Positions 11,031 to 26,507 of a stretch of 64,000 bases of DNA are shown here, in pieces. This stretch comes from Gammaproteobacteria bacterium (lineage in GTDB: Bacteria > Pseudomonadota > Gammaproteobacteria > Steroidobacterales > Woeseiaceae): the NCBI GenBank assembly GCA_029862045.1, contig JAOTYE010000017.1, positions 1-64,000 of the forward strand, given 5' to 3'. Under the pieces are notes generated by a model. It was not told the DNA's origin. It was given only the letters and a program-made list of their open reading frames with translations, and ran no database searches. How positions within the stretch are numbered: the first letter of the stretch is position 1; the number at the start of each line of letters is the position of its first letter. The translations under genes and the position numbers were made by a program.

Positions 11031-11750
11031 CTAGTTACTTGGAAGCTGCTGGGTTGCGCTCGTCGGCGACGACGGATGGGTCAAGTCGGCGCGTTTTTTC
11101 GCGAGCCGTGCATCGTCTATCGGGTTTCGTCCGAATTCCATTTTCCACAATACTGCGTTGGCATAACAAAAGAAGACTGCCATTACTGCTGCGATGCCAA
11201 GGTGGCCGATACCGGCCGCCAGTCCTACGCATATAGACGCGAATATAAAGATGCCATCTATGGCCTCCTGCAGTGCGACTCGAAACCTCACCGCGGCCAC
11301 CATTGCAGCCAGGCCAAATGCAAGCGCCAGGTTGTTCTGAATCAGCATTACGATCGTGGTGGCGCAGATCGGCAATACCAGCAGAGCACGCGCAAAGCTC
11401 TTTCGATAGCCGATTTCCCGCTTGATTGCGGCATATGTCCAGGTGATCGGTAGCATGACCAGAATCGTGCCGCCAAGACTGGACGAGAGAAACAGGGCAA
11501 GAAGGCCAATCTGCCCAGCTGTCGGCGCCTGCCCAAATCCAGGTCCTTCAGCCGGCGTCAAGCGGTCGATCAATGTTTGCTCGTTGCGCTCAATTCCCAG
11601 TACTTCAAAGGCGTCAGTGCCACCCAGCGGCATGAGGGACAGCGCCTCCGGCTTCATCATGCCAACGGCAAATAGGGCACCGAACAGCAGCGCAAAGTAA
11701 GCTGTGAGCGTTACAAGCAAACTTCTTGCGGTAACGGTTTCGTGAGTCAC
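11031..11750 (-). CDS. DUF4956-family integral membrane protein
   Basis: This 239-residue protein has an N-terminal helix (about 12-32), a soluble periplasmic-looking loop, four or five further helices (about 85-195) and a charged cytoplasmic tail. AAVRFRVALQEAIDG followed by FASICVGLAAGIG is the family hallmark. It is a paralogue of the protein at 1643-2254 with the same start pattern (a single helix followed by SLMPLGG/KYLPVGG). It is the first gene of a two-gene operon with the CotH-like gene. ORFs of this family are often found near polyphosphate or CotH genes, but no VTC domain gene is visible here. Confidence 0.75.
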   Translation of the reverse strand: MTHETVTARSLLVTLTAYFALLFGALFAVGMMKPEALSLMPLGGTDAFEVLGIERNEQTLIDRLTPAEGPGFGQAPTAGQIGLLALFLSSSLGGTILVMLPITWTYAAIKREIGYRKSFARALLVLPICATTIVMLIQNNLALAFGLAAMVAAVRFRVALQEAIDGIFIFASICVGLAAGIGHLGIAAVMAVFFCYANAVLWKMEFGRNPIDDARLAKKRADLTHPSSPTSATQQLPSN

Positions 11751-11853: not shown

Positions 11854-14253
11854 TTAGTAATAGTTCGCCGGCAGTTCCCGCGGCGGCACGGTGTTTTCGT
11901 CTGACACCGTGATGATGACCCTGTCGAGTTTTCCATCAAACTTGAAGATGCCGGTGTACAGATCGGATACCTGCGTTCCCGTATCCCTGCCGATATCAAA
12001 CGTCTCGGCGAGCGAGTAGGTGGCGACATGCATCTGGGGCATTTCGACTTCGTCGACTTTCTCGCCGTTGACGTAGAGTTCGCCGTCGCCGCCAAACTGT
12101 TTGGTCTTGATGAAGTTGAATTTCAGCTCCGTCTTGCCCTTCGGCAGGGGCGATGACTTCAGAATGTAATGCACGCCATCAAGGAAGTTGTAGTCGTAAT
12201 AGAGGCGATGATCCTTGATGAACATCGTGTAGCCGCCGGTCATGCCGCCCACTGCAGCGATGACCCCTTCCTCGTCACCCTTGAGATCGATCTGCGTTTC
12301 GATCGTGTGCGCGCGGTTCTTGACCGGTGCCGATGATTTCTCGGCGATGCGGATTGCGCCCGGTGCGTAATAAATGAACTCTTTCTGGTCACCGAACAGA
12401 CGATCCTGCTGTGCACCGAGGCGCTGAATCATGTCGTCGTACAAGGGATAGACGTTGTACTTCCAGGCTTCCTCGTCAAATATCTCGATGAGCTCCGCGA
12501 GCTTCTCCGGATACTCTTCGGCGAGGTTCGTACTCTCCGAGAAGTCCTCAGCGACGTTGTACAACTCCCACTCATCATTTTCGAATGGCAGCACGACGTT
12601 GACGTCCCATGGCATGCGTTTGGCATGCAGAGTAACGGCCTTCCAGCCATCGACCCAGATCGCACGATTGCCGAACATCTCGTAGTACTGCCGTTCCTTT
12701 ACGTTCGGTGCGTCCGCGTTATTGAAGGAGTACATCAATGAATCGCCATCCATTGGTTGCTGCGGCACACCGTGGTATTCCTCGGGAACTTCAATACCGG
12801 CGGCTTCCATGATGGTTGGCGCAATATCGCTGATGTGATGATACTGATTTCGAATTTCGCCCTTTGCCTCGATTCCATTCGGCCAGTGCACAACGAGGTG
12901 GTCTGCTTGTCCGCCACGGTGTTCGCTCTGCTTGAAATAACGGAACGGCGTGTTGCCAGCCATCGCCCAGCCCGCGTGGTAATGCGGGTAGGTGTTTTCG
13001 CGACCCCAGTCTTCCTGAGCGCGCAAGTTGGCTTCAAGCGTTGTCTGCAGGCCGTTCAGAACATAAGTTTCGTTGAACGTGCCCGCGAGGCCACCTTCGC
13101 CGGACGCGCCATTGTCAGCGGTCACAAATATTAACGTATTTTCCAACTCACCAATGCGGTCGAGCTCAGACACGACGCGACCGATCTGCATGTCGACCCA
13201 TTCCATTTGGCCGGCGAACACTTCCATTTGTCTTGCATACAAAGACTGTTCTTCGGGTGACAGCGAGTCCCAGGCCGGAATCTGATCGATGCGTTCTGTC
13301 AGCTTAGTATCTTGCGGGACGATGCCGAGCGCTTTCTGGCGTTCGAGGATTTGCACGCGCGCCTCGTCCCAGCCCATGTCGAACTTGCCTTTGTATTTGT
13401 CGATGTGGCTGTCGGGAGCATGATGGGGCGAGTGCATCGATCCCGATGCCCACAACATCATGAAGGGTAGGTCGGGTTGAAGCGACTTGTGACCCGTGAT
13501 CCACTCGATGGCACGGTTTGCCAGGTCCTGGTCGAGATGCACGGACTTGCGGTACGGCTCCGGCGTGTGGTCGTTCCACATGACCGGCACGAACTGGTGC
13601 ACGTCGGCGGCCATGAACGTGTAGGCATGCTGGAAACCTTCACCACTGGGCCAGCGGTCGAACGGGCCGGTCTGTGAGACCTCGTAGAGCGGCGTGTGGT
13701 CCCACTTGCCGAGCGCGTAATTGATGTAGCCTTCCTGTTCCAGGTAATTGGCGACCGATTTGGCGGACTCCGGCATGATCGCGTTGTATCCAGGGAAGCC
13801 CATGGCGGTCAGCGCATGGCTGCCAAGGCCAATCGAGTGCGGGTTACGGCCGGCCATCAACGTTGCTCGCGACGGCGAGCAGAGGGCCGTCGTGTGGAAG
13901 TTGTTGTAGCGCAGCCCGTTCTCGGCCAGCGCGTCGATGTTCGGCGTGCTGATTAAACCGCCAAAACTTTCAACTTGAGCGAATCCCACATCGTCGAGCA
14001 GGAAGATGATGACGTTCGGCGCGTCTTCATTCGGCACCTCATAGGGCGCCCACCACTCCTGAGAATCATCATAGCGTTCGGCTATAACTCCTTTAAATCC
14101 CTCAACATTCTTGGTCTTGACGCCGGAGTCAGAGACTGAGAATTCCTCAGTGGCAGAAGACTCGTCGCTGGCTGTGTTTGTGGTGGACTCTCCGCCGCAC
14201 GCCGCAAGGAAGAGGGCAGCCAAAATTGTGGCTGAAGTTCTGAAATCGCTCAT
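11854..14253 (-). CDS. Lipid-anchored arylsulfatase with C-terminal lectin-like domain
   Basis: This 799-residue protein would hydrolyse sulfate esters in the periplasm or at the outer membrane. A lipobox (LAAC, Cys 19) precedes the sulfatase domain. Key residues include LLDD (85-88), the CSPSR formylglycine motif with Cys 125, GKWDH (182-186) and FVTADNG further on. The catalytic part spans about residues 78-620. Residues of about 650-790 form a beta-rich concanavalin/LamG-like domain that may bind a polysaccharide or fix the enzyme to a surface. Cys 125 must be converted to formylglycine, and no FGE or anSME gene is in the window. It is 141 bases after the AI-2E-type gene and may have its own promoter. 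Confidence 0.92.
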   Translation of the reverse strand: MSDFRTSATILAALFLAACGGESTTNTASDESSATEEFSVSDSGVKTKNVEGFKGVIAERYDDSQEWWAPYEVPNEDAPNVIIFLLDDVGFAQVESFGGLISTPNIDALAENGLRYNNFHTTALCSPSRATLMAGRNPHSIGLGSHALTAMGFPGYNAIMPESAKSVANYLEQEGYINYALGKWDHTPLYEVSQTGPFDRWPSGEGFQHAYTFMAADVHQFVPVMWNDHTPEPYRKSVHLDQDLANRAIEWITGHKSLQPDLPFMMLWASGSMHSPHHAPDSHIDKYKGKFDMGWDEARVQILERQKALGIVPQDTKLTERIDQIPAWDSLSPEEQSLYARQMEVFAGQMEWVDMQIGRVVSELDRIGELENTLIFVTADNGASGEGGLAGTFNETYVLNGLQTTLEANLRAQEDWGRENTYPHYHAGWAMAGNTPFRYFKQSEHRGGQADHLVVHWPNGIEAKGEIRNQYHHISDIAPTIMEAAGIEVPEEYHGVPQQPMDGDSLMYSFNNADAPNVKERQYYEMFGNRAIWVDGWKAVTLHAKRMPWDVNVVLPFENDEWELYNVAEDFSESTNLAEEYPEKLAELIEIFDEEAWKYNVYPLYDDMIQRLGAQQDRLFGDQKEFIYYAPGAIRIAEKSSAPVKNRAHTIETQIDLKGDEEGVIAAVGGMTGGYTMFIKDHRLYYDYNFLDGVHYILKSSPLPKGKTELKFNFIKTKQFGGDGELYVNGEKVDEVEMPQMHVATYSLAETFDIGRDTGTQVSDLYTGIFKFDGKLDRVIITVSDENTVPPRELPANYY

Positions 14254-14394: not shown

Positions 14395-15501
14395 TCAGGT
14401 TTCGGCAGGCTGAGCGGACTCGAGTTCGGGTGCATCCGGCGCCATCCACGCGGTGACCAGTTCGTAGCCGAGTGCGAGCACTACCGCGCCGATGAACAAC
14501 CCGATAATGCCCTGCGACATCGCGCCGCCGATGGCGCCGATCAGGATGACGAGCATCGGTACGTCGAGGCCGCGACCCAGCAACATCGGCTTGAGGAACG
14601 CGTCGCTGGCGCTGACGATCAATGCGTAAACCAGGAAGATGGTCGCCGGCACTCCGTCCATCACGGAAAAAACCCAGATGGCGATCGGGCCGAGAATCAG
14701 GATCGGCGGTAACTGAATGATGGCGAGCACGAGTACGGCGCCGGCCCAGAGTCCGGCGGCGGGCACACCAATCGCGACCAGGCCGATTGCCGACAAGATT
14801 GCCTGAATGATGGCGACGCCGAGGACACCTTTGGTGACGCTGCGGATCGTCAGGATCGACAAATCCGTGAGCTTCTCGCCGCGCTCGGCGCCGATCAGGC
14901 TGACGGCGATGTTACGCGATGCCTCGTAACCTTTACTCGCTGATGTCAGGAACACGCCGGCAATCAGGATCGCAAAAACGAACTGCAAGACGCCGACTAC
15001 CGTGCTGCCGGCGAACGCAAGCGCGGTTTGTCCAAGGGACTTGAGCTGCGGCGTGTATTTGTTCAGGGTCGCTTCGAAGTTTGTCGCAGCACCGTTCCAC
15101 GCGGCGTAGAGGGGCTCGCCGATCAGCGTCCAGTCGGCGACGCTTTCTGCCGGAGGCGGGATGCTGACCGCGCCGTCTTCGAGATCCGATGCAATGTGCC
15201 GCAGCCCATGGAAGGTCGAATCCGCCAGATACCCGGTGGGCACGAGCAGGATGGCGAGGCCAGCCAGCACGAGGAGGGCGGCCGACAATTTCTCGCGACC
15301 TCCGAGCCTGGCGCTCAACACTACGTGTGCCGGGTAAACGGCGACACTAATGATCAGTCCCCAGACGACGACGTTGATAAACGGTGCGATGATCGTAAAG
15401 CACCAGTAAAGCAGGAGGAGTACTGCGCCAATCTGGATGAACGAGGCCATCGCATTCGCCAGGAAACTCTGGTCGACTTGCGAGCTATCGGCGCTGGTCA
15501 T
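14395..15501 (-). CDS. AI-2E family (PerM-like) transporter
   Basis: This 368-residue inner-membrane protein has about eight hydrophobic segments: two pairs in the N-terminal third, a soluble region (about 95-160), then the C-terminal bundle. The C-terminal SDAFLKPMLLGRG motif (about residues 290-305) and GLFIGAVVLALGYEL are typical of the AI-2E transporter/PerM family. Members move small solutes or ions; AI-2 export is established for only a few. It starts 18 bases after the SYLF gene stop, so it belongs to the long leftward gene run that contains the DUF3604 genes. Confidence 0.88.
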   Translation of the reverse strand: MTSADSSQVDQSFLANAMASFIQIGAVLLLLYWCFTIIAPFINVVVWGLIISVAVYPAHVVLSARLGGREKLSAALLVLAGLAILLVPTGYLADSTFHGLRHIASDLEDGAVSIPPPAESVADWTLIGEPLYAAWNGAATNFEATLNKYTPQLKSLGQTALAFAGSTVVGVLQFVFAILIAGVFLTSASKGYEASRNIAVSLIGAERGEKLTDLSILTIRSVTKGVLGVAIIQAILSAIGLVAIGVPAAGLWAGAVLVLAIIQLPPILILGPIAIWVFSVMDGVPATIFLVYALIVSASDAFLKPMLLGRGLDVPMLVILIGAIGGAMSQGIIGLFIGAVVLALGYELVTAWMAPDAPELESAQPAET

Positions 15502-15519
15502 TGTTATTCTCCCGAGCTT

Positions 15520-16110
15520 CTAATTGAGGTCCTCGTCCTGCCAGTACTTGGTGCCCTGCAGTGTTATCTGAAGCGCGAGGCCCTTGTCAGTCATCTGATA
15601 GACCGTGACAGCCTCGTTCAGCCCGATCGCCGCTTCCATCGAACCGGCCTGTTCCTTCTGTTCTGAATCGGTCGTCGCCGCCGCATCCGCCTGCCCGGAG
15701 AAGTTCCAGCCTTTCTCGACGAACTGATCGAAGGCGTCTCTGCTATGGAAAATGAAGACGGCACTGAATTTCTTGACGCCCATGCCGACGCCGCCGCCGG
15801 CAGAGAACATCTTCATGAAAGTATCCTTGTCGGAACTGTTGTCGTGCGCAATTCCAATGCCGTTCGCGGTGGACACCAGCAGCAAATTGACACCGGTGTT
15901 GGAAAAGACGGCGTACCCGACGCCTTTGCTGATCATGTCTTCAGCGGACGGTTTCTCATCGTACAGCCGCGCGAGCGTTTCCTCGCGCATCTCGAGAACT
16001 TCTGCCCGTTCCTTGTCGACGTTCTTTTTGCCGAAAATGGCCTCGGCTTCAAGCGCGTAGAACGATGCAAACAATAAGAATACGATCGATGCTAATGACG
16101 TAGTTTTCAT
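15520..16110 (-). CDS. Exported SYLF/Ysc84-domain protein
   Basis: This 196-residue protein has a signal peptide (cleavage after ALEAEA, near residue 24). It carries a SYLF (Ysc84 actin-binding/lipid-binding) domain in the remainder: GYAVFSNTGVNLLLVSTANG (66-85), GGGVGMGVKKFSAVFIFH and FDQFVEKGWNFSGQADAAA. Bacterial SYLF proteins are predicted lipid binders, and their cellular role is poorly known. It lies 17 bases after the barrel gene and 18 bases before the AI-2E-type gene, so it is part of the long operon-like run. A role in envelope lipid contact is inferred. Confidence 0.85.
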   Translation of the reverse strand: MKTTSLASIVFLLFASFYALEAEAIFGKKNVDKERAEVLEMREETLARLYDEKPSAEDMISKGVGYAVFSNTGVNLLLVSTANGIGIAHDNSSDKDTFMKMFSAGGGVGMGVKKFSAVFIFHSRDAFDQFVEKGWNFSGQADAAATTDSEQKEQAGSMEAAIGLNEAVTVYQMTDKGLALQITLQGTKYWQDEDLN

Positions 16111-16127
16111 TTGTCGTCACCCGTGGC

Positions 16128-16889
16128 TCAGAAATTGAATATGACGCCGATAATCGGGCCGTGCGTCACGGTGTCGTATTGAAAGAAACCCGGTTGGCCA
16201 GCAGCGCCCGTTTCGAAATCCACCCACAGCGCCTTGTACTGCAGATCGAGGTCCATCAATTCGGTCATCTTGAATTTGAATCCGGCAGCGGCCATCGCGG
16301 TGAAGTCCGACTCAACTCCGAGGCCGCCAACGTCACCTCGAAGTTGAAATGTCCACTTGTCGTTTATCGAATTGGCCCAGCGAACGCCGATGACGATGTC
16401 GATCCAGTCTTCCTCGACTTCGGCGGTCGCCGTGCCGGGCAGGATGGCCGGATCGACGTCCACGTCAATATCGTTGTCCCACCAGCGCACACCGGCCGTG
16501 AAATCGAGATGGCCGTTGCCGGACGACTTACGGCGTACCAGCAACGCCTCGAATACACCCTGGCGCAGGCGCGCGTCCACGACACCGCCACGCGGGCCGG
16601 AAATATCGGCACTCAGGTCCATGAAGCCGTAGTCGAGTGCCACGCCCCAGCCGTTGCTGTGGTGCGCCTCGAAATGCGCCATGAACCCGATATCGAGTAC
16701 CTCGAGGATGTCGCTCATATCGACATCGACGGCCACACCAGTCGCACGACCGATGCCGGCATCGCCTTCAATGCTCGAGGCGAGTGCGTAGGGCTCCAAT
16801 TCGTACGTCCAGTCGTCTCCGATTGCGGCGGCCGGCATCGCCAGGAGCGCGAGGGTAGCCACGGCAGGGCTAATAGACTTGCTACTCAT
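16128..16889 (-). CDS. Outer-membrane beta-barrel protein of the DUF3604 gene run
   Basis: This 253-residue exported protein begins with MSSKSISPAVATLALLAM and has a cleavage site near AIG-DD. The ATG at 16889 is chosen because AAAGGA lies eight bases before it, while an ATG six bases further upstream is too close. The mature part has alternating strands (WTYELEPYALASSIEGDAG at the start) and ends IIGVIFNF with a terminal Phe, as expected for a barrel. The overall layout resembles the outer-membrane proteins found beside periplasmic enzymes, but no substrate is evident. It follows the second DUF3604 gene by 32 bases and may provide the passage or anchoring for its substrate. Confidence 0.8.
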   Translation of the reverse strand: MSSKSISPAVATLALLAMPAAAIGDDWTYELEPYALASSIEGDAGIGRATGVAVDVDMSDILEVLDIGFMAHFEAHHSNGWGVALDYGFMDLSADISGPRGGVVDARLRQGVFEALLVRRKSSGNGHLDFTAGVRWWDNDIDVDVDPAILPGTATAEVEEDWIDIVIGVRWANSINDKWTFQLRGDVGGLGVESDFTAMAAAGFKFKMTELMDLDLQYKALWVDFETGAAGQPGFFQYDTVTHGPIIGVIFNF

Positions 16890-16921
16890 CGTCATCGTCC
16901 TTTGTGATTGATCTTCATTCC

Positions 16922-18841
16922 TCAAGGCGTGTACCAGATCGGCGAGGTGTAGGCGCGCTCCTGCGTCGTCATTGGCACATCGGGCGATGGCATGTCGATG
17001 CCGAAACGCTTGGCCTCGTAGGCGGTCCAGCGTGGCGTCGGAATTTCGAGAACGCGAGCGTAGTAGACGGCGCGAAGTTTTGGATCGAATTCAGGATCGG
17101 TCCATGCCGTGATCAACTCGGGGCTGCCGATCGAGTTCGTCCAGGTCGCGTTGGCGACATCGACGGTGTTTCCCACCGGCGGCAGTTTGCCGTTGTCGCC
17201 CGGGCTGCGGTCACCGGACCAGGCCACGTCATAGACTTTTTCGTGACGCTGGCCGCGGCCGTCGACCCAGCCCTTGACGATCTGGATGCGGTCGAGGTTG
17301 CCCGACAACGGGTCTTTGAGCGCCGCGACGAGGAACGATGGTGCCTTGCCTGACGGTGCACGGGTGAGATCACCGCCCATCGGTACACCTTTCATGTAGC
17401 CCACATCCGCTGGCAGACGGCCTTGCGCGTCCGCTGCCTCGAAGTCCCAGCCACCGAAGAAGCGCACGAGCATGCGCGGCCCGGTCGTGGCGTAGGTCTC
17501 CTTGCGCATCATTGCGTCAAACAGCGCTTCGCGCGTGTTCTCGGTCGCCCAGATGCCCTGGTAACCCGAAGCGACCATCGACCAACCCGGATATTCGTTG
17601 TCACCGACCTTTGCCATTGCGTGATAGACGCGTTGCGGATTCGGTTCCGCACCGGAGTGCTTGCCGAAGAAGTTGTCTTCTTCAGCAGTGGCCAACGCGG
17701 TGTGGGTGTCGGTCGCAGCGACTAGGCCAAACTTGTACGGGTTGGTACCAAACTTTTCTTCGAGCTGCAGCCCCATCTGCAATGCGCTGCGGGCATACTC
17801 GCCGGCGAGCATGCTGTCTTTTTTCAGTTCGCTCAGGTCGAGGTTGCCGACAGCCCAGGTCTCGTAGTCGGCAAACTCATCGTTCGGTGACAGGTAAGGA
17901 TGGGTTTCGCCATCGCCCTTGATCTGTGTGGTTTCGTAGAGCGGCTCCCAGCGGGCGCGGGTCTCGGCGTAGTTGCGGTCCACACGTCCGCCGGTGACCG
18001 TGCGGTCCATCGGGAACATCGTACCGTTGCTCATGTTGCCGTTGTGGGCGATCGCCAGCAGGCGGCCACCGCTCTTGTCCTCGTAGGACTGCATCCAGTT
18101 CCACAGCTCGCGTGGATCCGGGCTGCCGAACGGCGATAGCGTCGTGTAGGGCTCCATCATCAGTGCGCGCACAGCGTCGTCGCGGTAGATAACGTTGCGG
18201 TGCAAGTTGTAGCCCTTGTTGGTTGACGTCCATTCGTAACCGATGAACGCGGTGAAGTTACCCGGATCATTGGCTTCTTCGGCCGCCTTGACTGTGAGCT
18301 CCCAGGCCGAACGATAGGCATCGGTGCCCGGCAGCGCAGCCAGCGCCGGTGGGAACTTGTTGGCCGTGACCGCCTGGATAATCTCCACGGCAGCCTTGAC
18401 GCCTTCCTGTCCGCCAGCGTTGATCATGTCGTACCAGCGCCTACCTGTGGGGTCGGCCAGCATCGACGGTTCGCCGCTTATCAGACGCGGAAAGAAACCC
18501 ATGTTGTCCGAGTGATCGGACACGACAAGGAAATCGAGTGGCCGGCTGAGCTTGACGTCCTGGCCAGTTGACGAGGTCAACTGCTCGCCGCGCGCGAAGC
18601 GGTAGGCGTCGGCCGGTTCCAGCCGCGCGCCGAACGCGCCGGCATCCATCGACAGGCCGGTGTGCACGTGCGTGTCACCCCAATAAACGTTCGTCGGGAA
18701 ATTGCGGTTGGCGTAGGGCGAGTAGTCATCGCGTTTCGGGTAGGCGTCAAGCAGCGATTCTTCGGCCGGGACAGGATCTGATGCCACTGCGGTGGCTGAC
18801 AGCAGCGTGGCGATCAAAGCGCCAAAAAAGTATCTTTTCAT
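16922..18841 (-). CDS. Exported DUF3604 protein (copy B), PHP-like metal-binding
   Basis: This 639-residue secreted protein has a signal peptide (cleavage after VAS near residue 21). The conserved blocks contain ligands arranged as in PHP-type phosphoesterases: H58 and H60 (GDTHVHTG), D109 and H110 (VSDHSD), E203 (GYEWTS), H214 (NLHRNV), H266 (AIAHNGN), D378 and H380 (TDTHTA). This suggests a metal-dependent hydrolase, but DUF3604 has no proven activity that I know of. The C-terminal 200 residues are beta-rich, with WTDPEFDP and a final YTSPIWYTP that is also the C terminus of copy A. It lies in the run with HupE and PPIase, with 58 bases to the hupE-like gene. An AAAAAGGA ribosome-binding site precedes the ATG. 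Confidence 0.88.
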   Translation of the reverse strand: MKRYFFGALIATLLSATAVASDPVPAEESLLDAYPKRDDYSPYANRNFPTNVYWGDTHVHTGLSMDAGAFGARLEPADAYRFARGEQLTSSTGQDVKLSRPLDFLVVSDHSDNMGFFPRLISGEPSMLADPTGRRWYDMINAGGQEGVKAAVEIIQAVTANKFPPALAALPGTDAYRSAWELTVKAAEEANDPGNFTAFIGYEWTSTNKGYNLHRNVIYRDDAVRALMMEPYTTLSPFGSPDPRELWNWMQSYEDKSGGRLLAIAHNGNMSNGTMFPMDRTVTGGRVDRNYAETRARWEPLYETTQIKGDGETHPYLSPNDEFADYETWAVGNLDLSELKKDSMLAGEYARSALQMGLQLEEKFGTNPYKFGLVAATDTHTALATAEEDNFFGKHSGAEPNPQRVYHAMAKVGDNEYPGWSMVASGYQGIWATENTREALFDAMMRKETYATTGPRMLVRFFGGWDFEAADAQGRLPADVGYMKGVPMGGDLTRAPSGKAPSFLVAALKDPLSGNLDRIQIVKGWVDGRGQRHEKVYDVAWSGDRSPGDNGKLPPVGNTVDVANATWTNSIGSPELITAWTDPEFDPKLRAVYYARVLEIPTPRWTAYEAKRFGIDMPSPDVPMTTQERAYTSPIWYTP

Positions 18842-18899
18842 GTCTGAATCCTTTTTTCCTTTTTCTCGCGAATCCTTGCCCGGTTTTTCTCGGCCCTCC

Positions 18900-19919
18900 C
18901 TAGGCCCAGAAGCCCGCGACGCGGGTGATCATCCAGTAACTCGCTACACTGCCGATAACGAAACTCGCTGGCGTCGTTAAGGCTGACCAGTGCAAATCTC
19001 CGGCTTCGGCCGCTTGTGACACGCGCAGATACCCTGCGCGCAGCACGAAGAAGCCGACCAGCAGGGCGAGTACGAACAGGATCTGCCCGATCTCGACGCC
19101 CACGTTGAAGAACAGCAGCGCGACCGGCAGCTCCGTTTGCGGCAGACCGATATCGCGCAGTACGGCCGCGAAGCCGAAACCATGCAGTAAGCCGAACGAC
19201 GCTGACACGGCGATCGGATAGCGATGCGTCAGCGAATTCTTGTTGCCCTTGGCGATTTCCCAGGCCATGAACACGACGCTCAGCGCAATGGCGGCTTCGA
19301 CAGGCGGCGTGGGTACGCGCACGAGATCGAGCGCCGACAAAGCGAGAGTGATCGAATGCGCCACGGTGAATCCCGTGATCGTAATCAGCAGGCGGCGCGA
19401 CGTGCCGGCGATGAACACGAGGCAGGCCACGAACAACAGGTGGTCGATGCCGATCCAAATGTGCTCGACGCCGAGTGCGGTGTATTGCGTTGCGACGGCG
19501 AACTGGTTCTCGGCGTCGGGTACCGTCCACTCGGTCTCACTGGGTTTCAGGATGCGCAGGTGCTCTTCGCCATTGCCGAGTCGGATCTTGTACAACGTTG
19601 ACAGCGACGGGTTGATGATCGGGAATTCAATGCCGACAACGCGACCCGACAATCCTTCTTCGCAACGAAACACCTGCTGGCCGACGTATTCCGCACCCGC
19701 CTGCTGCCACGCGGGTTGACGGTCGGCGACGCAATTCTGAGGCAGCGTCGGGTAGGGCAAGGCGCTGCCGGGCATACTGGCCGGCACCTTCCACGACACG
19801 CTGAAGGTATTGGTGTCGGTCTCCGTGATCTGCACGTAGTTTGGCCGCGCGTCGTGCGCCTGCGCCGTCGACGCGAGCAAAAAAACGGACAACACGAAGA
19901 AGCGACGCAGGATCATCAC
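18900..19919 (-). CDS. HupE/UreJ-family membrane protein with periplasmic N-terminal domain
   Basis: This 339-residue protein has a signal peptide (cleavage after AQA, residue 21), a periplasmic domain with Cys 63 and Cys 86 (22-145) and about six membrane helices (145-339). The family signature is visible: GVEHIWIGIDHLLF (150-163) with His 153, Asp 159 and His 160; FTVAHS with His 188; and LLHGFGFA with His 246. HupE and UreJ proteins are nickel- or metal-linked permeases. This longer HupE/UreJ_2 type is common in marine bacteria and its cargo is unknown. The start codon is 2 bases after the PPIase stop, indicating translational coupling, and it is sandwiched between two DUF3604 genes. Metal supply to them is an inference. 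Confidence 0.85.
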   Translation of the reverse strand: MMILRRFFVLSVFLLASTAQAHDARPNYVQITETDTNTFSVSWKVPASMPGSALPYPTLPQNCVADRQPAWQQAGAEYVGQQVFRCEEGLSGRVVGIEFPIINPSLSTLYKIRLGNGEEHLRILKPSETEWTVPDAENQFAVATQYTALGVEHIWIGIDHLLFVACLVFIAGTSRRLLITITGFTVAHSITLALSALDLVRVPTPPVEAAIALSVVFMAWEIAKGNKNSLTHRYPIAVSASFGLLHGFGFAAVLRDIGLPQTELPVALLFFNVGVEIGQILFVLALLVGFFVLRAGYLRVSQAAEAGDLHWSALTTPASFVIGSVASYWMITRVAGFWA

Positions 19920-19921
19920 AA

Positions 19922-20812
19922 CTACCCGATCACGTCGCGTTCGAAAGTTCGACGAACCTCGTAGGTGTCGACAATCGCCTGGATGGCTTTGTCTTTCTGC
20001 TCGGCAATCGCCTCGCGCTCGGTATCGTCACGCACGATTGCCTCGATTTCTGCGAGCTCGGGAAAGCGGCCCTCAGCTTTCTTCGCCAGCAGGACGAGGT
20101 GCATGCCGTATTCCGATTCGAACGGGCCGTGCCAGGTCGTATCGCCGGGATCCAGCGCGAAGACCTGCTCGGCCATCGGCACGCCGAAATGGCTGGCAAC
20201 GAACTGCGGATCACGCTCGACATAGTTGACGAAGTAGGGGAAGCGGTCGCCGTGGCGGGGCGCATCACTGAACGCCACCTGTTGTTCATTGAGCTGCGCG
20301 AGCTTCGCTTTGGCCAATCCGAATGCCTCGTCACGACTCTGGCGCTCGCCGTCGAAGAACACATGGGTGAAGGTCACGAAAGGCCTGATGTAATAGTCAT
20401 CACGATTGGCATCGTAATAGGCCGATACATCCTCGTTGGAGACGTCGACCGCAGCGGTCACGAAACCATCGGTAATGAACTCGATCGACTGAATCATACG
20501 ACGCTTGATGATGTAGTCGTTCTGGTCCATGCCGAGGGCTTTTGCCTCTCGATGCAGCGCTTCCTCGCGCACGTAATCGGCGATCAGGCGGTCGAGTTCA
20601 TCCTCCGGCATGTTATCGAGGCGTGCTGCCGCGGCTCGAGGCTCGAACGCGCGGGACCGGTATTGCACGAACGTCAGCAATGCATCGCGATCGACGTTGA
20701 TGACCCTGCTGTCGTACGCTACCTCGTCGCTTGCGACGATATCGAACAGCACGAACAGGCCGCAGCCGATCGACAGGAAGTAAATGAGCGGATCTCTCAG
20801 TATTCTTGTCAT
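19922..20812 (-). CDS. Membrane-anchored PpiC/SurA-like peptidyl-prolyl isomerase
   Basis: This 296-residue protein has a single N-terminal helix (about 10-28) and no cleavage site, so it should sit in the inner membrane facing the periplasm. Residues 40-150 form a SurA-like helical N domain (Arg- and Glu-rich). Residues of about 140-255 carry the parvulin-type rotamase domain, with FTHVFFDGER near 147-156, FALDPGDTTWHGPFESEYGMHLV near 219-241 (the usual GPxxSxxGxHLV motif), and a charged tail. It catalyses prolyl cis-trans isomerisation or acts as a chaperone. It is coupled to the hupE-like gene and is 24 bases after DUF3604 copy A. It is probably a dedicated foldase for one of those products. 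Confidence 0.85.
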   Translation of the reverse strand: MTRILRDPLIYFLSIGCGLFVLFDIVASDEVAYDSRVINVDRDALLTFVQYRSRAFEPRAAAARLDNMPEDELDRLIADYVREEALHREAKALGMDQNDYIIKRRMIQSIEFITDGFVTAAVDVSNEDVSAYYDANRDDYYIRPFVTFTHVFFDGERQSRDEAFGLAKAKLAQLNEQQVAFSDAPRHGDRFPYFVNYVERDPQFVASHFGVPMAEQVFALDPGDTTWHGPFESEYGMHLVLLAKKAEGRFPELAEIEAIVRDDTEREAIAEQKDKAIQAIVDTYEVRRTFERDVIG

Positions 20813-20836
20813 CTCGTTTCCGCCGTCGTATCAGAT

Positions 20837-22780
20837 CTAGGGCGTGTACCAGATCGGTGAGGTATACGCACGTTCCTGGTGGATCAATTCCACGCCCTCG
20901 GGAATCTCGGCACCGAGGCGCACTTTGTCGTAGAGCACCCAGCGCGGCGTCGGGATCTCGAGTACCCGCACGTAGTAAAACGCACTCTCACCGGCATCGA
21001 AATCGGGGTCGGTCCATACCCTGGCGAGTTCGGATGCACCGATCGTGTTGGTCCAGTTCGCGGCCTCGATGTCGACGGTGTTGCCGACAGGAGGCAGCTT
21101 GCCATTGGCATCGGGTTGCCGGTCGCCGGACCAGGCCACGTCGTAGACCTTTTCCTGCAGATTGCCCCGGCCATCCATCCAGCCCTTGATGATCTGGATG
21201 CGATCGAGGTTGGCGCCGATGGGATCGCGCAACGCATAGACCATGAACGTCGGAGACTTGCCACCCGGCGCCATCGTCAGGTCAGCGCCCATGGGTACGC
21301 CCTTTTGGTAGCCAGGGAATGCCGGTTGACGGCTGCGCAGATCGTCGTCATCAAAATCCCAGCCGCCAAAGAACCGTACCGTCATGCGCGGGCCCGTGGT
21401 GGCATAGGTCTCTTTGCGCTCCATCGCATCGAAGAGCGCTGCGCGCGTGTTCTCGGTTGCCCAGATTCCCTGGTAGCCCGAAGCAAGCAACATATCGCCT
21501 TCAAAGGCGCCGAGTGCCGATTTGACGAACGGATGTGAGACGCGCGTTGCCGAGGGTTCAACACTGGTGGATTTGCCGAAGAAATTTTCCTCCTCGGCGG
21601 TCGGCAACGAGGTATGGGCGTCGGTCGCGCCGACCATACCGAACTTGTAAGGATTCGTGCCAAACTTCCTCTCGAGCATCAGGCCGCTCTTCAGCCCCTC
21701 GCGCGCATATTCGCGGGGTAACATATCCGGCGTTTTGAGTTCCGTGATATCGAGGTTAGCAACGTCCCAGGTGCCGTAGTCGGCAAATTCATCGTCGGGC
21801 GACAGCGTCGGGTGCGTTTCACCATCGCCCTTGATCTGGGTCACCTCGTAAAGCGGCTCCCATTTGGCCCGCAGCGTTACATACTCCTTATTGACCCGGC
21901 CGCCGGCGTAAGTTTTATCGACCGGGAACATCCAACCATTCGACAGGTTACCGTTGTGGGCGATCGCAAGCGCCCGACCGCCGGTCTTTTCTTCGTAGTC
22001 TTCGAGCCACTGATACAAGTCTAGGGGATCAGTGCTGCCCAGAGGGGCCTGAGTGACCATCGGAACGACCTGTCCAGCTCGCTCACCGCCGTCACGCAAG
22101 ATTACATTTCGGTGCAGGTTGAAGCCTTTCGGCACGGAGGTCCACTCGTAGCCGATCAATGCCGTGAAACGGTTGGGCTCGTTGTAAGCTTCGGCGGTTT
22201 TGACGATCTTCTCCCATACACTGTCATAAATCGTTGAACCTGGGCTGTATTGTTCGAGCAATTCAACGGGAACCGTGCCCTGCGAGAAATTTCCGATCAG
22301 GTCGAACGCTGCCGCGGCCGCCGCCTGGCCGCCCTTTGCGAAGCCTTCGGCCCATTCCTTGCCTTTTGGATTCGCGAGGATGTTCGGCGCCCCAGCCTGG
22401 ATATCGGTCGCGATGCCCATCATGTCGGAATGGTCGGTGATGACCAGCCAGTCGAGCGGCCGGCTGAGCTTCAACGGCTGGCCCGTCGACGTGACAACCT
22501 CTTCGCCGCGGGCCAGGCGGTATGCTGTCTCGTGCCCCGTTGTGTTGCCGAACAAACCGGCATCGAGTGAGAGTCCCGTGTGCAAATGGGTCTCACCCCA
22601 GTAGACCTGGCTGGGGAATGAGCGCTGGGCGTAGGGCGAATACGCCTTGCCGGGATACAGGCCCTCGATGTCCTCGATTTGAGGTATTCCGGCGTCATGC
22701 TGCGCCAGTGCCAGTCCGGGCGACAACAATGCAAACAGGAAGGCGAGGGCGCAGATCGTCGGGAGCAGAATTCGACTCAC
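20837..22780 (-). CDS. Exported DUF3604 protein (copy A), first gene of the run
   Basis: This 647-residue secreted protein is a paralogue of the product at 16922-18841. It has long shared blocks ([23 protein letters not shown]) and the same ligand set: H65 and H67 in [10 protein letters not shown]116 and H117 in TDHSDMM, plus the later GYEWTS, AIAHNGN and TDAHTS blocks. A signal peptide ends near LALAQ (residue 27). It starts with GTG, preceded by AAGGGA, in an unusually A+T-rich leader. It heads the eight-gene run and faces the AraC-type regulator at 23043 across 262 bases. The PHP-like metal site suggests hydrolase activity, but the reaction is unknown. Confidence 0.88.
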
Positions 22781-23042
22781 GTTTTTTCCCTTATTTTTTA
22801 ATTATTTATCTAGTTTTCTTAATCTATTTTCAGGTGCTTGATTCTTTTCAGTTTGCCGTTGAGTTGTAACGCACGTAGTTACGATCGTAGCACTTGCTTA
22901 TGAAAGGATCTGCAGTTAGCGTCACGACGGATTACATAACTGGAACTGGTCGGCAGATGACACGCTGAAAGCGGGCTGGCGTCTATCCACATTGCGCCAA
23001 CCGCGACGAGGGCTGAGGGGCTCGAAAAATCCGAGGTTTTTA
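22781..23042. other. Divergent intergenic region between the DUF3604 run and the AraC gene
   Basis: This 262-base region separates the leftward DUF3604 gene run from the rightward AraC-type gene. About 22790-22855 is strikingly A+T-rich compared with the rest of the window and probably holds the promoter and an UP-like element. A dyad lies at 22866-22882. No open frame with a ribosome-binding site was seen. The layout suggests a shared control region. Confidence 0.6.
22866..22882. promoter_or_regulatory. Inverted repeat GTAAC-N7-GTTAC, candidate operator
   Basis: GTAAC (22866-22870) and GTTAC (22878-22882) face each other across seven bases, about 85 bases upstream of the DUF3604 copy A start. 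AraC proteins usually bind direct repeats, so this dyad may belong to another dimeric regulator. A role is inferred from position. Confidence 0.35.
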
Positions 23043-24011
23043 ATGAACTACGACGAATTTGCCGCCGATCTCCCGGCCGATCGAACCATCGAGTTCACCA
23101 CTGTCGAGAAGATGGAAGAGACGTTTCGAGAGTGGGGCGTTGAGCAGCCGATGCGCCAGCTGGGAAATGGCAGTTTTCGATCCGCGCTGGCGGTGCAGAG
23201 CACGAAACAAGCGGACCTGTTTTCGGACCGATACAGCACCGCCATATCTGTTTATCTGGAGCCGCCGCCAGGCAACGTCGGTTTTCTGTTTCCCCGGAGT
23301 GCCAGTGGACAGTTCGTGACCAACGGCGAGGATGTGGGCAATGACAAGCTGGTCGCCCTGTCCGACGGATCCGGCGCGGACATCGTGGTTCCGGCCCTGG
23401 CCGGCTCCGAAACCATCATCGTTCCCGAAGCGCGATTCATCGAGATGGCGGGAGTGCTTTGCCCGATGGCCGTCCTACCGGAAGTCACGTCCATCTTCGA
23501 GGGGGATTGCGCACAACTGCACGCATTGAGAAAGGCCGTGGCCGACCTGGTCGCCCAGCCGGAGTCGGACGTGCAGGATAAGGATGTAGCCAACGTCATC
23601 GCTCAGACCATCGGTTGGATGGGCGATTCCCGCTGTCAGTCGAGACCAAAATACCTCAGCGTGAATCAGGCTCGAGTTCGCGTTGCCAGGTTGGCCCAGG
23701 AGTACATTGAGGCGCATTATTCCGAGGCCGTCCACGTTGAGGATCTCTGCCGCGTCACGGGGGTGGGGGTCCGGACGTTGCAGCGTTGCTTTCGAGAGTA
23801 TTTCAACCTCACTGTGTCGGATTATCTCAAGACCGTGCGGCTGGACTCCGCGCGCCGCGAACTGGTCGCCGCACATCCGACAGAAACTTCCGTCACGAGA
23901 ATAGCCATGCGGAACGGATGCACACACCTCGGGCGGTTTTCTGTCGAGTTTCGCGAGCGCTTCGGGCAGTCGCCGAAGGAGACACTCGCGATGCAGGCAG
24001 GCAATAGGTAG
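23043..24011 (+). CDS. AraC-family transcriptional regulator
   Basis: This 322-residue regulator has a variable N-terminal sensor part (1-215) followed by the AraC-type double helix-turn-helix domain. The latter shows EAVHVEDLCRVTGVGVRTLQRCFREYF and later IAMRNGCTHLGRFSVEFRERFGQSPKETL. The N-terminal part looks like the Arabinose-binding-like domain found in regulators of small-molecule catabolism. The ATG at 23043 starts MNYDEFAADLP and is preferred to an earlier in-frame start. It lies divergent from the DUF3604 run with 262 bases between, which makes this run its most likely target. The effector is unknown. Confidence 0.9.
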   Translation: MNYDEFAADLPADRTIEFTTVEKMEETFREWGVEQPMRQLGNGSFRSALAVQSTKQADLFSDRYSTAISVYLEPPPGNVGFLFPRSASGQFVTNGEDVGNDKLVALSDGSGADIVVPALAGSETIIVPEARFIEMAGVLCPMAVLPEVTSIFEGDCAQLHALRKAVADLVAQPESDVQDKDVANVIAQTIGWMGDSRCQSRPKYLSVNQARVRVARLAQEYIEAHYSEAVHVEDLCRVTGVGVRTLQRCFREYFNLTVSDYLKTVRLDSARRELVAAHPTETSVTRIAMRNGCTHLGRFSVEFRERFGQSPKETLAMQAGNR

Positions 24012-24060: not shown

Positions 24061-24465
24061 TTATTCTCGTAGTGCCTCGGCCACACGCTGCAATCGCTGT
24101 CTTGCATCGGTCGCAACACTGCGGAGTGTGTCATTGGCGACCAGCTCTTTCGTTTGCATCATGATATCGGGATTCATAATGCGGACGAGGCTCCCGTCAA
24201 TATCGGCCTCCACCGTGACATTGCACGGCAGCATCAAGCCGATTTCACGTGCCGATGTTAGCGCGGCATGCGCCAGTTGCGGATTGTAGGCGCCCAGGAT
24301 CGTGTAGGGGCGAAATTTCTTACCGATCTTTTTCTGAAAAGCCTGATCGATTTCGATTTTCGTCAACACGCCGAAACCTTCGGCTTTCAGCGCGTCGGTG
24401 ACTTTGTCGATGGCCTGGTCGTGCGAGTCCGTAAGACGAACCTCAAATCCGATATTTTCTCTCAC
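24061..24465 (-). CDS. DUF302 domain protein
   Basis: This 134-residue soluble protein has no signal peptide. It matches the DUF302 layout: F-VRL-...DKVTDALKAEGFGVLTKIEID, then KFRPYTILGAYNPQLAHAAL, IGLMLPCNVTVE and DIMM. The single Cys in MLPCNV is the conserved one. DUF302 proteins are small, cytoplasmic or periplasmic, of unknown function. They sometimes sit near redox genes. It lies 40 bases after the membrane gene at 24506-25030 and in the same direction, so the two are probably co-transcribed. Confidence 0.87.
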   Translation of the reverse strand: MRENIGFEVRLTDSHDQAIDKVTDALKAEGFGVLTKIEIDQAFQKKIGKKFRPYTILGAYNPQLAHAALTSAREIGLMLPCNVTVEADIDGSLVRIMNPDIMMQTKELVANDTLRSVATDARQRLQRVAEALRE

Positions 24466-24505
24466 TGTTCTGCCCTACTTGTCATTGCCCCCTGATTTCG
24501 GTTTC

Positions 24506-25030
24506 TTATTCCCTGCCCAGCAGATTGACCACGTAAGCTGCAACGAAGAATGCAAAAGCCACCAGACTTACCGGTGGGATGCCGCCGTGCCAGCCTGACG
24601 GGTTGAGCCAGCCTTCGTAGCCCATGAAAAACAGGTGCGCACCTCCCAGTATCATCGCCACGAGCATGAACCGGCGCGAGGTAATAAATTGAATGAAGGC
24701 CTTGTCCTCGCGCAGGTGTGTCTGAAAACTCAGGTTATAGGCCCAGAGAACTACGAAGGCCAGGACGCCGCCGAGCATGCTGAGCCCGGCCAGCAGCGTC
24801 AACGTCCCGTCCGTTTGGAAGAATTTGCCGTACACATTGGGGCTGAACAGCATGAAGCTCATCAGCGAGTGAATGAGCACCAGTAGAAATCCCGTCATAC
24901 CCAGCGCTTTGCGCGCGTTGAGCCACCCCTGAGGTACCTTGACGCCGAGGCTGTGCAGTGGGCCGAAAATCAAAACGATAAGGATGATCGAGCCGGCTGA
25001 ATTCTGTGCTTTTTTTGTCTCGGTACTCAT
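24506..25030 (-). CDS. Ferric-reductase-like integral membrane protein
   Basis: This 174-residue protein has five hydrophobic segments (about 13-30, 43-62, 77-97, 118-138, 148-168). RKALGMTGFLLVLIHSLMSF near residues 40-60 and GGAHLFFMGYEGWL near 129-142 place His residues in helices as in small ferric-reductase-like or MsrQ-type b-haem domains. This suggests haem binding, but the second pair of ligands is not clearly seen, so the assignment is tentative. It precedes the DUF302 gene in the same direction. Confidence 0.55.
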   Translation of the reverse strand: MSTETKKAQNSAGSIILIVLIFGPLHSLGVKVPQGWLNARKALGMTGFLLVLIHSLMSFMLFSPNVYGKFFQTDGTLTLLAGLSMLGGVLAFVVLWAYNLSFQTHLREDKAFIQFITSRRFMLVAMILGGAHLFFMGYEGWLNPSGWHGGIPPVSLVAFAFFVAAYVVNLLGRE

Positions 25031-25124
25031 TTCCCGAGCTGATTATTGATTTTGTGTCGGCATTGACTTTAGCAACTTACGCCGGCCTGCCGTATCTGCT
25101 ATCCACTTTGCGACAATAGCGGTT

Positions 25125-25709
25125 CTAAGCGTTGGGACCGCCGAGTTGCATGAAATACAGCGTAATAAGACTTACCAGCAACAGCCAGTTCACGATGGCC
25201 ACCGCGGCGTGGATTGTTGGGTTTGCTGAAATTCGCAATACTAAGGCGCTTGCGAGGAACGCGGTCAGCAGCGGCAGCGTCGGCGCGAAAAAGCCGTGCA
25301 TAATCGGCGACGAAAATATTGCCCAAAGCCATAGTAGAACCAACACGGCAGAGTAGGTGGTTCGAGACGAGAGAAAGTGTTTCTTCAGGTCGCTACTGTC
25401 GTCGTCGAAAACCGGCAGCAGAATCGCGGTCCCAACGAACAACAAGATAGGGCCGGTTAATAGATACAGAAACGTCAGGAAATTGATCGTCGCCGCACCG
25501 CGAATGCTGTAAAGCGTCCACCAGAACAGGATATGCAGCAGGAACTGATAGCCTGCCGACAGCGTGAATACCCAGTAGTGTGTCACCTGCACTGACTGTC
25601 GACGTCGCAGGTACTCCGCAAAACCGCTCAGCCAGCGTACGATGCCGAGGCCATTTACAACGGCCGCCAACGTTATGACGAAGGCAAATGACTGGTAGTC
25701 GGCGGGCAT
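25125..25709 (-). CDS. Hypothetical integral membrane protein
   Basis: This 194-residue protein has about five or six hydrophobic segments (about 7-27, 45-70, 76-98, 118-135, 137-158, 168-188). A basic cytoplasmic loop RRRQSVQ lies near residue 35. I do not recognise a family. It starts 6 bases after the stop of the barrel gene at 25716-26507, so the two are one transcription unit. A possible next pair (24506, 24061) follows after 94 bases. An ATG at 25709 is the obvious start. Confidence 0.65.
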   Translation of the reverse strand: MPADYQSFAFVITLAAVVNGLGIVRWLSGFAEYLRRRQSVQVTHYWVFTLSAGYQFLLHILFWWTLYSIRGAATINFLTFLYLLTGPILLFVGTAILLPVFDDDSSDLKKHFLSSRTTYSAVLVLLWLWAIFSSPIMHGFFAPTLPLLTAFLASALVLRISANPTIHAAVAIVNWLLLVSLITLYFMQLGGPNA

Positions 25710-25715
25710 CGATTG

Positions 25716-26507
25716 CTAAAAGTCAAATTTGAGGAATACGAGAGCGCCTGAGTACCGCCAGTCGATTGCTCCGTCGAAACTGCTTTTTGTGGCGCCCACA
25801 TCGATAGTCACGGTGTTGAAGCCGATGCCGAGCGACATATTGTTGAACACTCTGTAGTCGAAGCCTGCGTACATGTCGACCAGTGAACCGTCGACGTTTT
25901 CGTACTCAACAAAAAAGAACTCGCCACTGGCTCGAAAGGTCCATCGATCGGAGAGCGCATATTGGCCTCTGAGACCGATCACGGGTAGTGGCGCCGTCAA
26001 TTCGCCGACCTCGGCCTGCCCGAGGTTCTGTTCGGCAAGGCCCGCGCTCGCATCTGCGACGTAAACACCGATAGTCGCACCGAGGTAGCCCGTATCCCGT
26101 TGCAGGAACGAGTAGGTGTACGCCGCTTTGTAGATTGCCAGGTCGACGCTGGACTCGATGACTGTGTCGATGCTGTAAAGCGTGTCACCCCACTGGATAT
26201 CTCTTTCTATCTGCTTGGAACTCTTGCGCGACAAGTCGAACACGCTGAAGTCTGCACGGTGACGCTCACTGAAACGGAAGTAGCCGTCAACCCGGAATAC
26301 CGTATCGGAGGCATTGAGGCCCAAATCCGATTCGAAATCCAAATCGGTGCCGTCACCCAGTGACGAATCGAAGCGCGTATCGGTATCACGATCGGTAATA
26401 AACACGCCGGGGCTCAGGCTGAAGCGATCGCCGTCTAGTGATTGGGCGCTTGCTTGCGGCGCCAGGACACACCCCACCAGCAGAACTAAAGCAACTCTAA
26501 GAATCAT
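25716..26507 (-). CDS. Outer-membrane beta-barrel protein
   Basis: This 263-residue exported protein has a signal peptide (cleavage after ASAQS, near residue 22). About ten to twelve amphipathic strands follow, and the end is SGALVFLKFDF, the aromatic signature recognised by the BAM complex. FSLSPGVFITDRDTDTRFD at the start and LRGQYALSDRWTFRASGEFFF later are typical of small porin-like barrels. No Cys pairs or specific motifs identify the cargo. It is divergent from the BamA-like gene at 26611. Confidence 0.75.
   Translation of the reverse strand: MILRVALVLLVGCVLAPQASAQSLDGDRFSLSPGVFITDRDTDTRFDSSLGDGTDLDFESDLGLNASDTVFRVDGYFRFSERHRADFSVFDLSRKSSKQIERDIQWGDTLYSIDTVIESSVDLAIYKAAYTYSFLQRDTGYLGATIGVYVADASAGLAEQNLGQAEVGELTAPLPVIGLRGQYALSDRWTFRASGEFFFVEYENVDGSLVDMYAGFDYRVFNNMSLGIGFNTVTIDVGATKSSFDGAIDWRYSGALVFLKFDF

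Follow-up and report, generated by a model that had tools for sequence, protein, structure and literature searches.

The window analysed here is a 64,000-nucleotide (nt) stretch of contig JAOTYE010000017.1 from a gammaproteobacterium of the family Woeseiaceae, and it carries two genes of the DUF3604 family on either side of genes for a peptidyl-prolyl isomerase (PPIase) and a HupE/UreJ-type permease. The core of this locus, a trio of DUF3604, a membrane-anchored parvulin PPIase and a HupE_UreJ_2 permease with an extracytoplasmic domain, is recurrent, and its clustering is far beyond chance. DUF3604 is, as judged from a structural model and conserved residues, an exported PHP-type metallohydrolase that is very probably metal-dependent, and we tentatively propose, at a little under an even chance, that the trio is a folding and metalation module for this hydrolase. 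The module as such is well supported, and we infer its metal, the direction in which that metal flows and the substrate. Its genes are:

20837-22780 (-): DUF3604 copy B, 647 amino acids (PF12228, 798.3 bits, cut-off 20.4; signal peptide by eye)
19922-20812 (-): parvulin-type PPIase, 296 amino acids (PF13145 Rotamase_2, 44 bits, cut-off 27, residues 124-257)
18900-19919 (-): HupE_UreJ_2 permease, 339 amino acids (PF13795, 152 bits, cut-off 24.5)
16922-18841 (-): DUF3604 copy A, 639 amino acids (PF12228, 814.5 bits, cut-off 20.4)

To assess recurrence we took the 80 best-matching of 592 confirmed places as named public loci; they are matches to copy A and lean to its relatives. Most are contigs of metagenome-assembled genomes, many of which end near the genes, and here as in every neighbour count below, neighbours were counted among open reading frames (ORFs) from a simple stop-to-stop script, not a gene finder. 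The PPIase was present in 41 of these loci and HupE in 42, with both in 41; where at least 2.5 kilobases (kb) of sequence lay on each side, both partners were present in 33 of 49. PPIase and HupE genes overlap by exactly 4 nt in 24 of the 40 pairs measured, and the strand of the PPIase is that of the nearest DUF3604 gene in 39 of 41 cases. The record titles span about eleven phyla (among them Pseudomonadota, Myxococcota, Acidobacteriota, Planctomycetota, Gemmatimonadota, Bacteroidota and Nitrospirota), the records being mostly metagenome-assembled contigs with possible binning errors. DUF3604 also occurs in 79 plasmid records, mostly rhizobial, and plasmid annotations show the trio in more than one order: Rhizobium and Rhodobacter have DUF3604-PPIase-HupE, Neorhizobium has this order with one small hypothetical gene inserted, and Sinorhizobium has PPIase-HupE-hypothetical-DUF3604. 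The lack of any recurrent link between DUF3604 and PPIase or HupE/UreJ genes, named in the original prediction (made from the letters of the window) as one of its refuters, is thus itself refuted by these loci and by the genome samples below.

Distant DUF3604 relatives of about 770 amino acids (the length of CehA) likewise adjoin a SurA/parvulin-type gene (L026:181-3304, L205:6212-10411 and L206:6521-10901); at L205 and L206 the parvulin-type gene is divergent from the DUF3604 relative, with a HupE gene there too. The relative at L026 touches the CehA/McbA family (NF038032, E 9e-7, 28.6 bits, below cut-off), and this contact, together with the adjacent parvulin genes, suggests that the partnership is old. 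A few loci encode, close to the trio or within it, another protein that matches classical HupE_UreJ, as between DUF3604 and PPIase at L115:12213-13064; the cluster is also seen at L080, L083 and L117.

Whole genomes show the same association. We used a class sample of 274 genomes and a phylum sample of 299 Pseudomonadota genomes, both drawn around the window's own genome, which is in each; they share some DUF3604-free genomes, and among genomes with DUF3604 at E <= 1e-20 the own genome alone is common to both. Profiles for the PPIase (A3) and HupE (A2) were built from copies beside DUF3604 and then searched through whole genomes. At E <= 1e-20, DUF3604 and the PPIase were each found in 18 of the 299 genomes of the phylum sample and together in 17 (p ~2e-24 without the own genome), the exceptions being one genome with DUF3604 alone (G441) and one with the PPIase alone, at 75 bits (G371). 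At the same threshold, the class sample holds the PPIase in 16 genomes, DUF3604 in 18 and both in 14, with the PPIase lacking DUF3604 in two of its 16 genomes (G170 and G322), one of which has a weak DUF3604 match. The predicted link is accordingly borne out by a PPIase subfamily present in 17 of 18 DUF3604 genomes of one sample and 14 of 18 of the other. Above 100 bits, 13 of the 14 class-sample genomes with this PPIase also have DUF3604 (p ~2e-14), and other parvulin-like matches in that sample score about 75 bits or less. HupE_UreJ_2 is more widespread: it was found in 79 of the 274 genomes, DUF3604 in 26, and the two in common in 19 (p ~1e-6).

The HupE found with DUF3604 is a distinct, long form. 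The phylum sample holds 20 near-full-length copies (335-438 bits), and the other HupE matches listed there at E <= 1e-30 score at most 193 bits and start at profile position 73 or later. These 20 copies pair one to one with the 20 PPIase copies above 200 bits, of which 19 lie within 1.5 kb of a DUF3604 match (the exception, in G580, is 41 kb away). By comparison, none of 20 HupE loci from DUF3604-free genomes contains the PPIase, and their HupE scores are 80-180 bits, as against 100-455 bits in DUF3604 loci of the same table, where the two lowest (100 and 154) adjoin distant CehA-length DUF3604 relatives. In 16 of these 20 DUF3604-free loci the HX5DH motif lies just 51-99 residues from the ORF start, leaving no room for an outer domain. 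Two loci in these genomes show signs of decay. One of the 19 close DUF3604 matches is a broken remnant with a stop (G481:C12:454138-456335) adjoining stop-free PPIase and HupE genes, such that the partners seem to outlive the hydrolase; at G071:C2:46039-46476, one short open frame contains the beginning of a DUF3604 match next to the final part of a HupE match, which looks like a trio whose two ends were joined by a deletion.

The assignment of DUF3604 to the PHP superfamily comes from a predicted structure of copy A (mean pLDDT 93.9), in which a PHP domain (residues ~47-455) is followed by a beta-sandwich (~456-639). Foldseek by itself found no PDB match at E <= 0.001 for the copy A or HupE models, and it was VIA, a second look at Foldseek's candidates, that gave both the PHP matches and those of the HupE outer domain. 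Residues 47-455 of copy A matched 3e38_B (Z 15.8, root-mean-square deviation (rmsd) 3.3 over 226) and 2anu_D (Z 15.5, rmsd 3.6 over 214), followed by 7rty (12.4), Endonuclease Q (12.2) and RNase AM (9.0-9.1), and the first unrelated row stands at Z 4.0. The ten VIA entries at Z of at least 8.0 are all PHP proteins, by entry title or, in the case of PsfC, Endonuclease Q and PolC, as known members of the superfamily. The beta-sandwich (456-639) had low-scoring matches alone. At the sequence level the PDB gave no match to copy B up to E 1 or to a 79-sequence DUF3604 profile up to E 10, and a profile of the CehA-length distant set (A5) returned two chance rows, the better at E 0.58; nor did either DUF3604 copy of the window match the PHP family PF02811 in Pfam at E 0.001.

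The residues that would hold the metals are conserved throughout. In an alignment (A1) of 79 hand-picked sequences out of 118 listed DUF3604 ORFs or their distant relatives, H58, H60, D66, H110, E203, H214, H266, D378 and H380 of copy A (H65, H67, D73, H117, E212, H223, H275, D387 and H389 of copy B) are invariant in 79 of 79 at identities down to 24%, and D109 (copy B D116) is conserved in 78 of 79. Corresponding residues of RNase AM relatives, identified via 2yb1 and 7ug9, are H18, H20, D25, H50, E75, H86, H201, D258 and H260, all present in 11 of 11, and the second histidine of the first motif is presumably the ninth RNase AM ligand. In the RNase AM study, eight of these nine residues are given as ligands of three Mn ions (PMC9410882). 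RNase AM and DUF3604 also share an E-to-H spacing of 11 and a final D-x-H; because the profile comparison between them is weak (18%, E 0.0013, 43 columns), the ligands were mapped from motif order, spacing and fold together and not from one alignment. The original prediction had proposed a metal-dependent hydrolase, which agrees with both the matches of the model to PHP phosphoesterases and the conserved ligands. Every residue it had listed is conserved, with the amendment that the RNase AM motifs point to D66, and not D109, as the ninth ligand; the numbering it had given to copy B fits the gene at 16922-18841, here called copy A.

Compared with known PHP proteins (RNase AM, CV1693, 3e38 and 2anu), DUF3604 has the same fold over 47-455 and ligand motifs in the same order, and it differs from PHP phosphoesterases in being longer, in its C-terminal beta-sandwich, in its two partner genes and in matching no PF02811 profile. 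Two kinds of relatives are of interest. Sb-PDE is a secreted PHP phosphodiesterase with a signal peptide that contains zinc and some cobalt (PMC5460133), and DUF3604 resembles it in being exported. CehA and McbA are described as PHP-type carbamate hydrolases with essential histidines (PMC8292978), and against their family model (NF038032, cut-off 80 bits) copy A scored 13 bits and copy B gave no match, placing neither copy within the family. When DUF3604 was compared by profile with four PHP sequences that the NF038032 search had returned (A6; three above the cut-off, L213 at 75.9 against 80), the result was 90% over 48 columns, covering motifs I-II. Signal peptides of DUF3604 and HupE, the HupE cleavage site and the hydrophobic segment of the PPIase were all read by eye and not called by a signal-peptide program.

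The predicted HupE structure (pLDDT 89.8) consists of a signal peptide, a beta-sandwich domain (~22-133, the sandwich in the model spanning ~27-132) and then seven long helices, the transmembrane part of the model covering ~139-338. The membrane part carries H153-x5-D159-H160 and LLHG motifs, both of them conserved among relatives. HX5DH marks nickel permeases, and among 39 HupE sequences H153 is conserved in 37 and D159 and H160 in 38 each, with other membrane-part histidines also in 37-38; on sequence grounds, the earlier suggestion of a metal permease fits. Pfam matches on the protein are to just two HupE_UreJ families. In VIA, the outer domain resembles the zinc-binding protein ZrgA (8f1b, Z 10.9) and PA4063 (7ahw, Z 9.6-10.0). 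The top VIA row for the whole model was a chain of the chloroplast TOC-TIC complex on the helical part (Z 11.1), which we take as a common helical arrangement. After the predicted cleavage, mature HupE would start with His22, and the N-terminal residue is histidine in 33 of 38 relatives. This is reminiscent of an anglerase: the Ang-1 domain of another HupE/UreJ-2 protein (PDB 9GCE, copper-bound) binds Cu and Ni with dissociation constants of 74 and 220 nM, respectively, and its proposed role is to pass metal on to the permease for uptake into the cell (PMC12537917). Both proteins have a signal peptide, a mature N-terminal histidine and a HupE_UreJ_2 membrane part, together with an outer domain that in the window's HupE would likewise be Ig-like, and the alignment of 9gce begins at model residue 22, matched to residue 1 of 9gce.

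The third partner has one N-terminal hydrophobic segment, taken as a membrane anchor. Periplasmic foldases of the PpiD/SurA type have an N-terminal hydrophobic segment and a parvulin domain, and the PPIase of the trio shares both with them while being smaller (296 amino acids) and forming its own subfamily.

Twin DUF3604 genes, which the original prediction had included in its system, are not a fixed feature of the loci. Twins and neighbours were counted in 121 loci (L034-L137, L188-L207 and the window, to the exclusion of L001-L033 and L138-L187; L037, L039, L041 and L189 were dropped as the same contigs as other loci), and at least two long copies are present in 24 of them. Recent tandem duplication can be ruled out as the usual origin, because 44 of the 50 copies in multi-copy loci resemble a copy from some other locus more closely than their own partner; L047, L117 and L198 contain the six exceptions, and four of the 44 carry little weight, as they belong to the closely related loci L074 and L075. 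In a FastTree phylogeny of DUF3604, which mixes phyla, copy B falls in an 18-row group (support 100) and copy A in a 37-row group (support 86). Most twins are old paralogues kept together, and most simply the two copies would provide two specificities. The arrangement with DUF3604 on both sides of PPIase-HupE was also seen at L194, with short gaps, and at L191, with one longer gap.

In the mechanism that we propose, DUF3604 would be exported as a PHP-type hydrolase with a predicted three-metal site, and the PPIase, anchored in the inner membrane with its domain on the extracytoplasmic side, would help it to fold while it leaves the translocon. HupE would bind a divalent metal through its histidine-started outer domain, its membrane part would supply that metal to the hydrolase, and the finished enzyme would hydrolyse an ester (a phosphodiester, carbamate or alike) of an organic compound outside the cell. 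Zinc is our first guess for the metal, by analogy with Sb-PDE and from the resemblance to ZrgA and PA4063; an ester substrate would be in keeping with the PHP relatives and with the sulfatase genes often found nearby (15 of 121 loci). There is a precedent, again by analogy, for a membrane transporter that metalates exported enzymes: the TerC proteins MeeF and MeeY of Bacillus subtilis are membrane metal transporters that help to load exported enzymes with metal (PMC10550928). The likeness of HupE to TerC would be one of proposed job alone, as the window's HupE has no TerC profile match, and whereas TerC serves Mn enzymes generally, HupE would serve one hydrolase family. A more specific version, in which the trio is a Gram-negative export-side assembly line whose permease, through its histidine-started outer domain, hands metal to one family of PHP hydrolases emerging from Sec, beside a private foldase, is less likely than not. 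If true, it would be, judged against the papers cited here, the first permease-linked metallochaperone tied to one exported hydrolase family.

Several observations weigh against a folding and metalation module. HupE/UreJ proteins are described as uptake permeases, and outward supply of metal would reverse that direction. The partnership is also incomplete: neither PPIase nor HupE is present in 15 of the 49 named loci that are flanked on each side by 2.5 kb or more, and at E <= 1e-20 four of the 18 class-sample genomes with DUF3604 (G070, G151, G236 and G244) lack the PPIase. The own genome has five DUF3604 genes (the window pair, a second pair on contig C25 and one on C8) and a single strong match each for PPIase and HupE, which would require these partners to work in trans; several DUF3604 genes per PPIase-HupE pair fit such a service role, yet weaken a strict one-to-one partnership. 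Few positions are conserved in the PPIase family, and its enzyme activity is therefore not assured. As for HupE, the mature N-terminal residue is aspartate in five of 38 relatives, and a strict histidine brace is not claimed. The likeness to the anglerase domain is weak (Z 7.3, rmsd 3.1 over 102, where unrelated ELIC channel rows reach 7.2-7.4), the N-terminal histidine is found in 33 of 38 relatives rather than in all, and a HupE profile searched against the PDB up to E 10 listed no sequence match to 9GCE.

The direction of transport is also what divides our reading from its main rival, scavenging, in which DUF3604 frees a metal or nutrient from an outside compound, HupE imports the metal or a small product, and the PPIase folds exported domains. 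The description of HupE/UreJ as a nickel permease and the proposal that anglerase domains feed metal inward (PMC12537917) speak for it, and sulfatases, the commonest further neighbours, fit a catabolic setting. However, general uptake needs no DUF3604 partner, as HupE_UreJ_2 is wide without it (79 against 26 of the 274 genomes, as given above), and the closest partner of DUF3604 is the PPIase, which points to protein maturation; we consider scavenging rather unlikely. Still less probable is that HupE moves no metal and instead carries or senses an organic product of the hydrolase, with its histidines used otherwise. No transport has been shown for the subfamily in the literature consulted, and its outer domain is variable in sequence among relatives, both of which would suit this idea; set against it are the HX5DH motif and the other membrane histidines, kept in 37-38 of 39 sequences, and the resemblance of the outer domain to zinc-binding proteins.

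We regard it as very improbable that the three genes have no shared job and are linked just by riding on the same horizontally moved cassettes. A DUF3604 tree that mixes phyla and the copies on plasmids are what such transfer would leave; nevertheless, at E <= 1e-20 the PPIase occurs without DUF3604 in just one of 18 genomes of the phylum sample and two of 16 of the class sample, and gene order and 4-nt overlaps are maintained across many groups. A folding and metalation module stays our preferred, if tentative, account of the trio.

The single parts are of known kinds, and the trio is new as far as our searches reach: literature searches for DUF3604, PF12228, HupE/UreJ with peptidyl-prolyl isomerase, and anglerase, partly judged by title, returned no description of it. 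No assigned reaction for DUF3604 was found in the literature searched, where the family is named in one place, a Chlamydia mutant list (PMC11925237); the table there lists a DUF3604 domain-containing protein of 622 amino acids in Chlamydia trachomatis. In the main text of the anglerase paper, the words isomerase, prolyl and DUF3604 have no occurrences (PMC12537917). With its placement among PHP enzymes and its two usual partners, a family of unknown function becomes an enzyme that can be tested, along with candidate helpers. Metalation of exported metalloenzymes has been called 'less clear' than that of cytosolic ones (PMC10550928), and the three-gene set in cultured rhizobia and Halomonas offers a compact Gram-negative system for it. 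If DUF3604 relatives act on phosphodiesters or carbamates, like secreted PHP enzymes, they may matter for the breakdown of such compounds.

Around the trio, the window holds further genes:

16128-16925 (-): outer-membrane barrel-like protein, 265 amino acids (OMP_b-brl 20.1, below the cut-off of 28.7)
15520-16110 (-): SYLF/Ysc84 protein, 196 amino acids (PF04366, 32.5 bits, cut-off 25.1)
14395-15501 (-): AI-2E-family transporter, 368 amino acids (PF01594, 102 bits, cut-off 34.3)
11854-14253 (-): sulfatase, 799 amino acids, outside the span first described (PF00884, 170.7 bits)
22992-24011 (+): AraC-type gene, divergent from copy B (PF12833, 69.6 bits)

All seven leftward genes between 22780 and 14395 are ORFs where the original prediction had placed them, at distances, from copy B to the AI-2E gene, of 24, 2, 58, -4, 17 and 18 nt; the gaps of 2 to 58 bases it had described hold for five of these, the sixth being a 4-nt overlap of the barrel gene with DUF3604 copy A. 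Its title for a seven-gene system had omitted the AI-2E transporter, and the leftward run continues past 14395, with the sulfatase gene on the same strand 141 nt beyond the AI-2E gene and more leftward genes after it. These encode a DUF4956 protein (11031-11750), a protein whose CotH match is below threshold (9973-11007) and a further barrel (9242-9907). Between window positions 8000 and 24500, scans for promoters and terminators gave no excess over shuffles.

Frequencies across loci place the barrel and SYLF genes, which had been put forward as parts of the system, among occasional companions (13 and six of 121 loci, respectively, window included), and with an AI-2E gene in one of the 80 named loci, all three are rejected from a fixed system; the AI-2E transporter is probably incidental. 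After the PPIase and HupE, sulfatase is the commonest companion of DUF3604 (15 of the 121 loci, window included), and further neighbours include DUF1254/DUF1214 proteins (10 loci), LuxR-type response regulators (nine) and RND pumps (seven). Surveyed for one pathway, the neighbours of the 121 loci held nothing that singles out a substrate. The divergent AraC-type gene at 22992-24011 is a possible regulator; an AraC cluster other than that of the window recurs in six of the 121 loci, the window gene not being among them.

Elsewhere in the own genome, the DUF3604 pair on C25 has SYLF and sulfatase genes nearby, and the DUF3604 gene on C8 adjoins an AraC gene. Beside the trio, at 24061-26507, the window contains a DUF302 gene and three leftward genes without a Pfam match. 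The DUF1254/DUF1214 proteins recurring near DUF3604 are exemplified by L136:18818-20260, with nine further loci.

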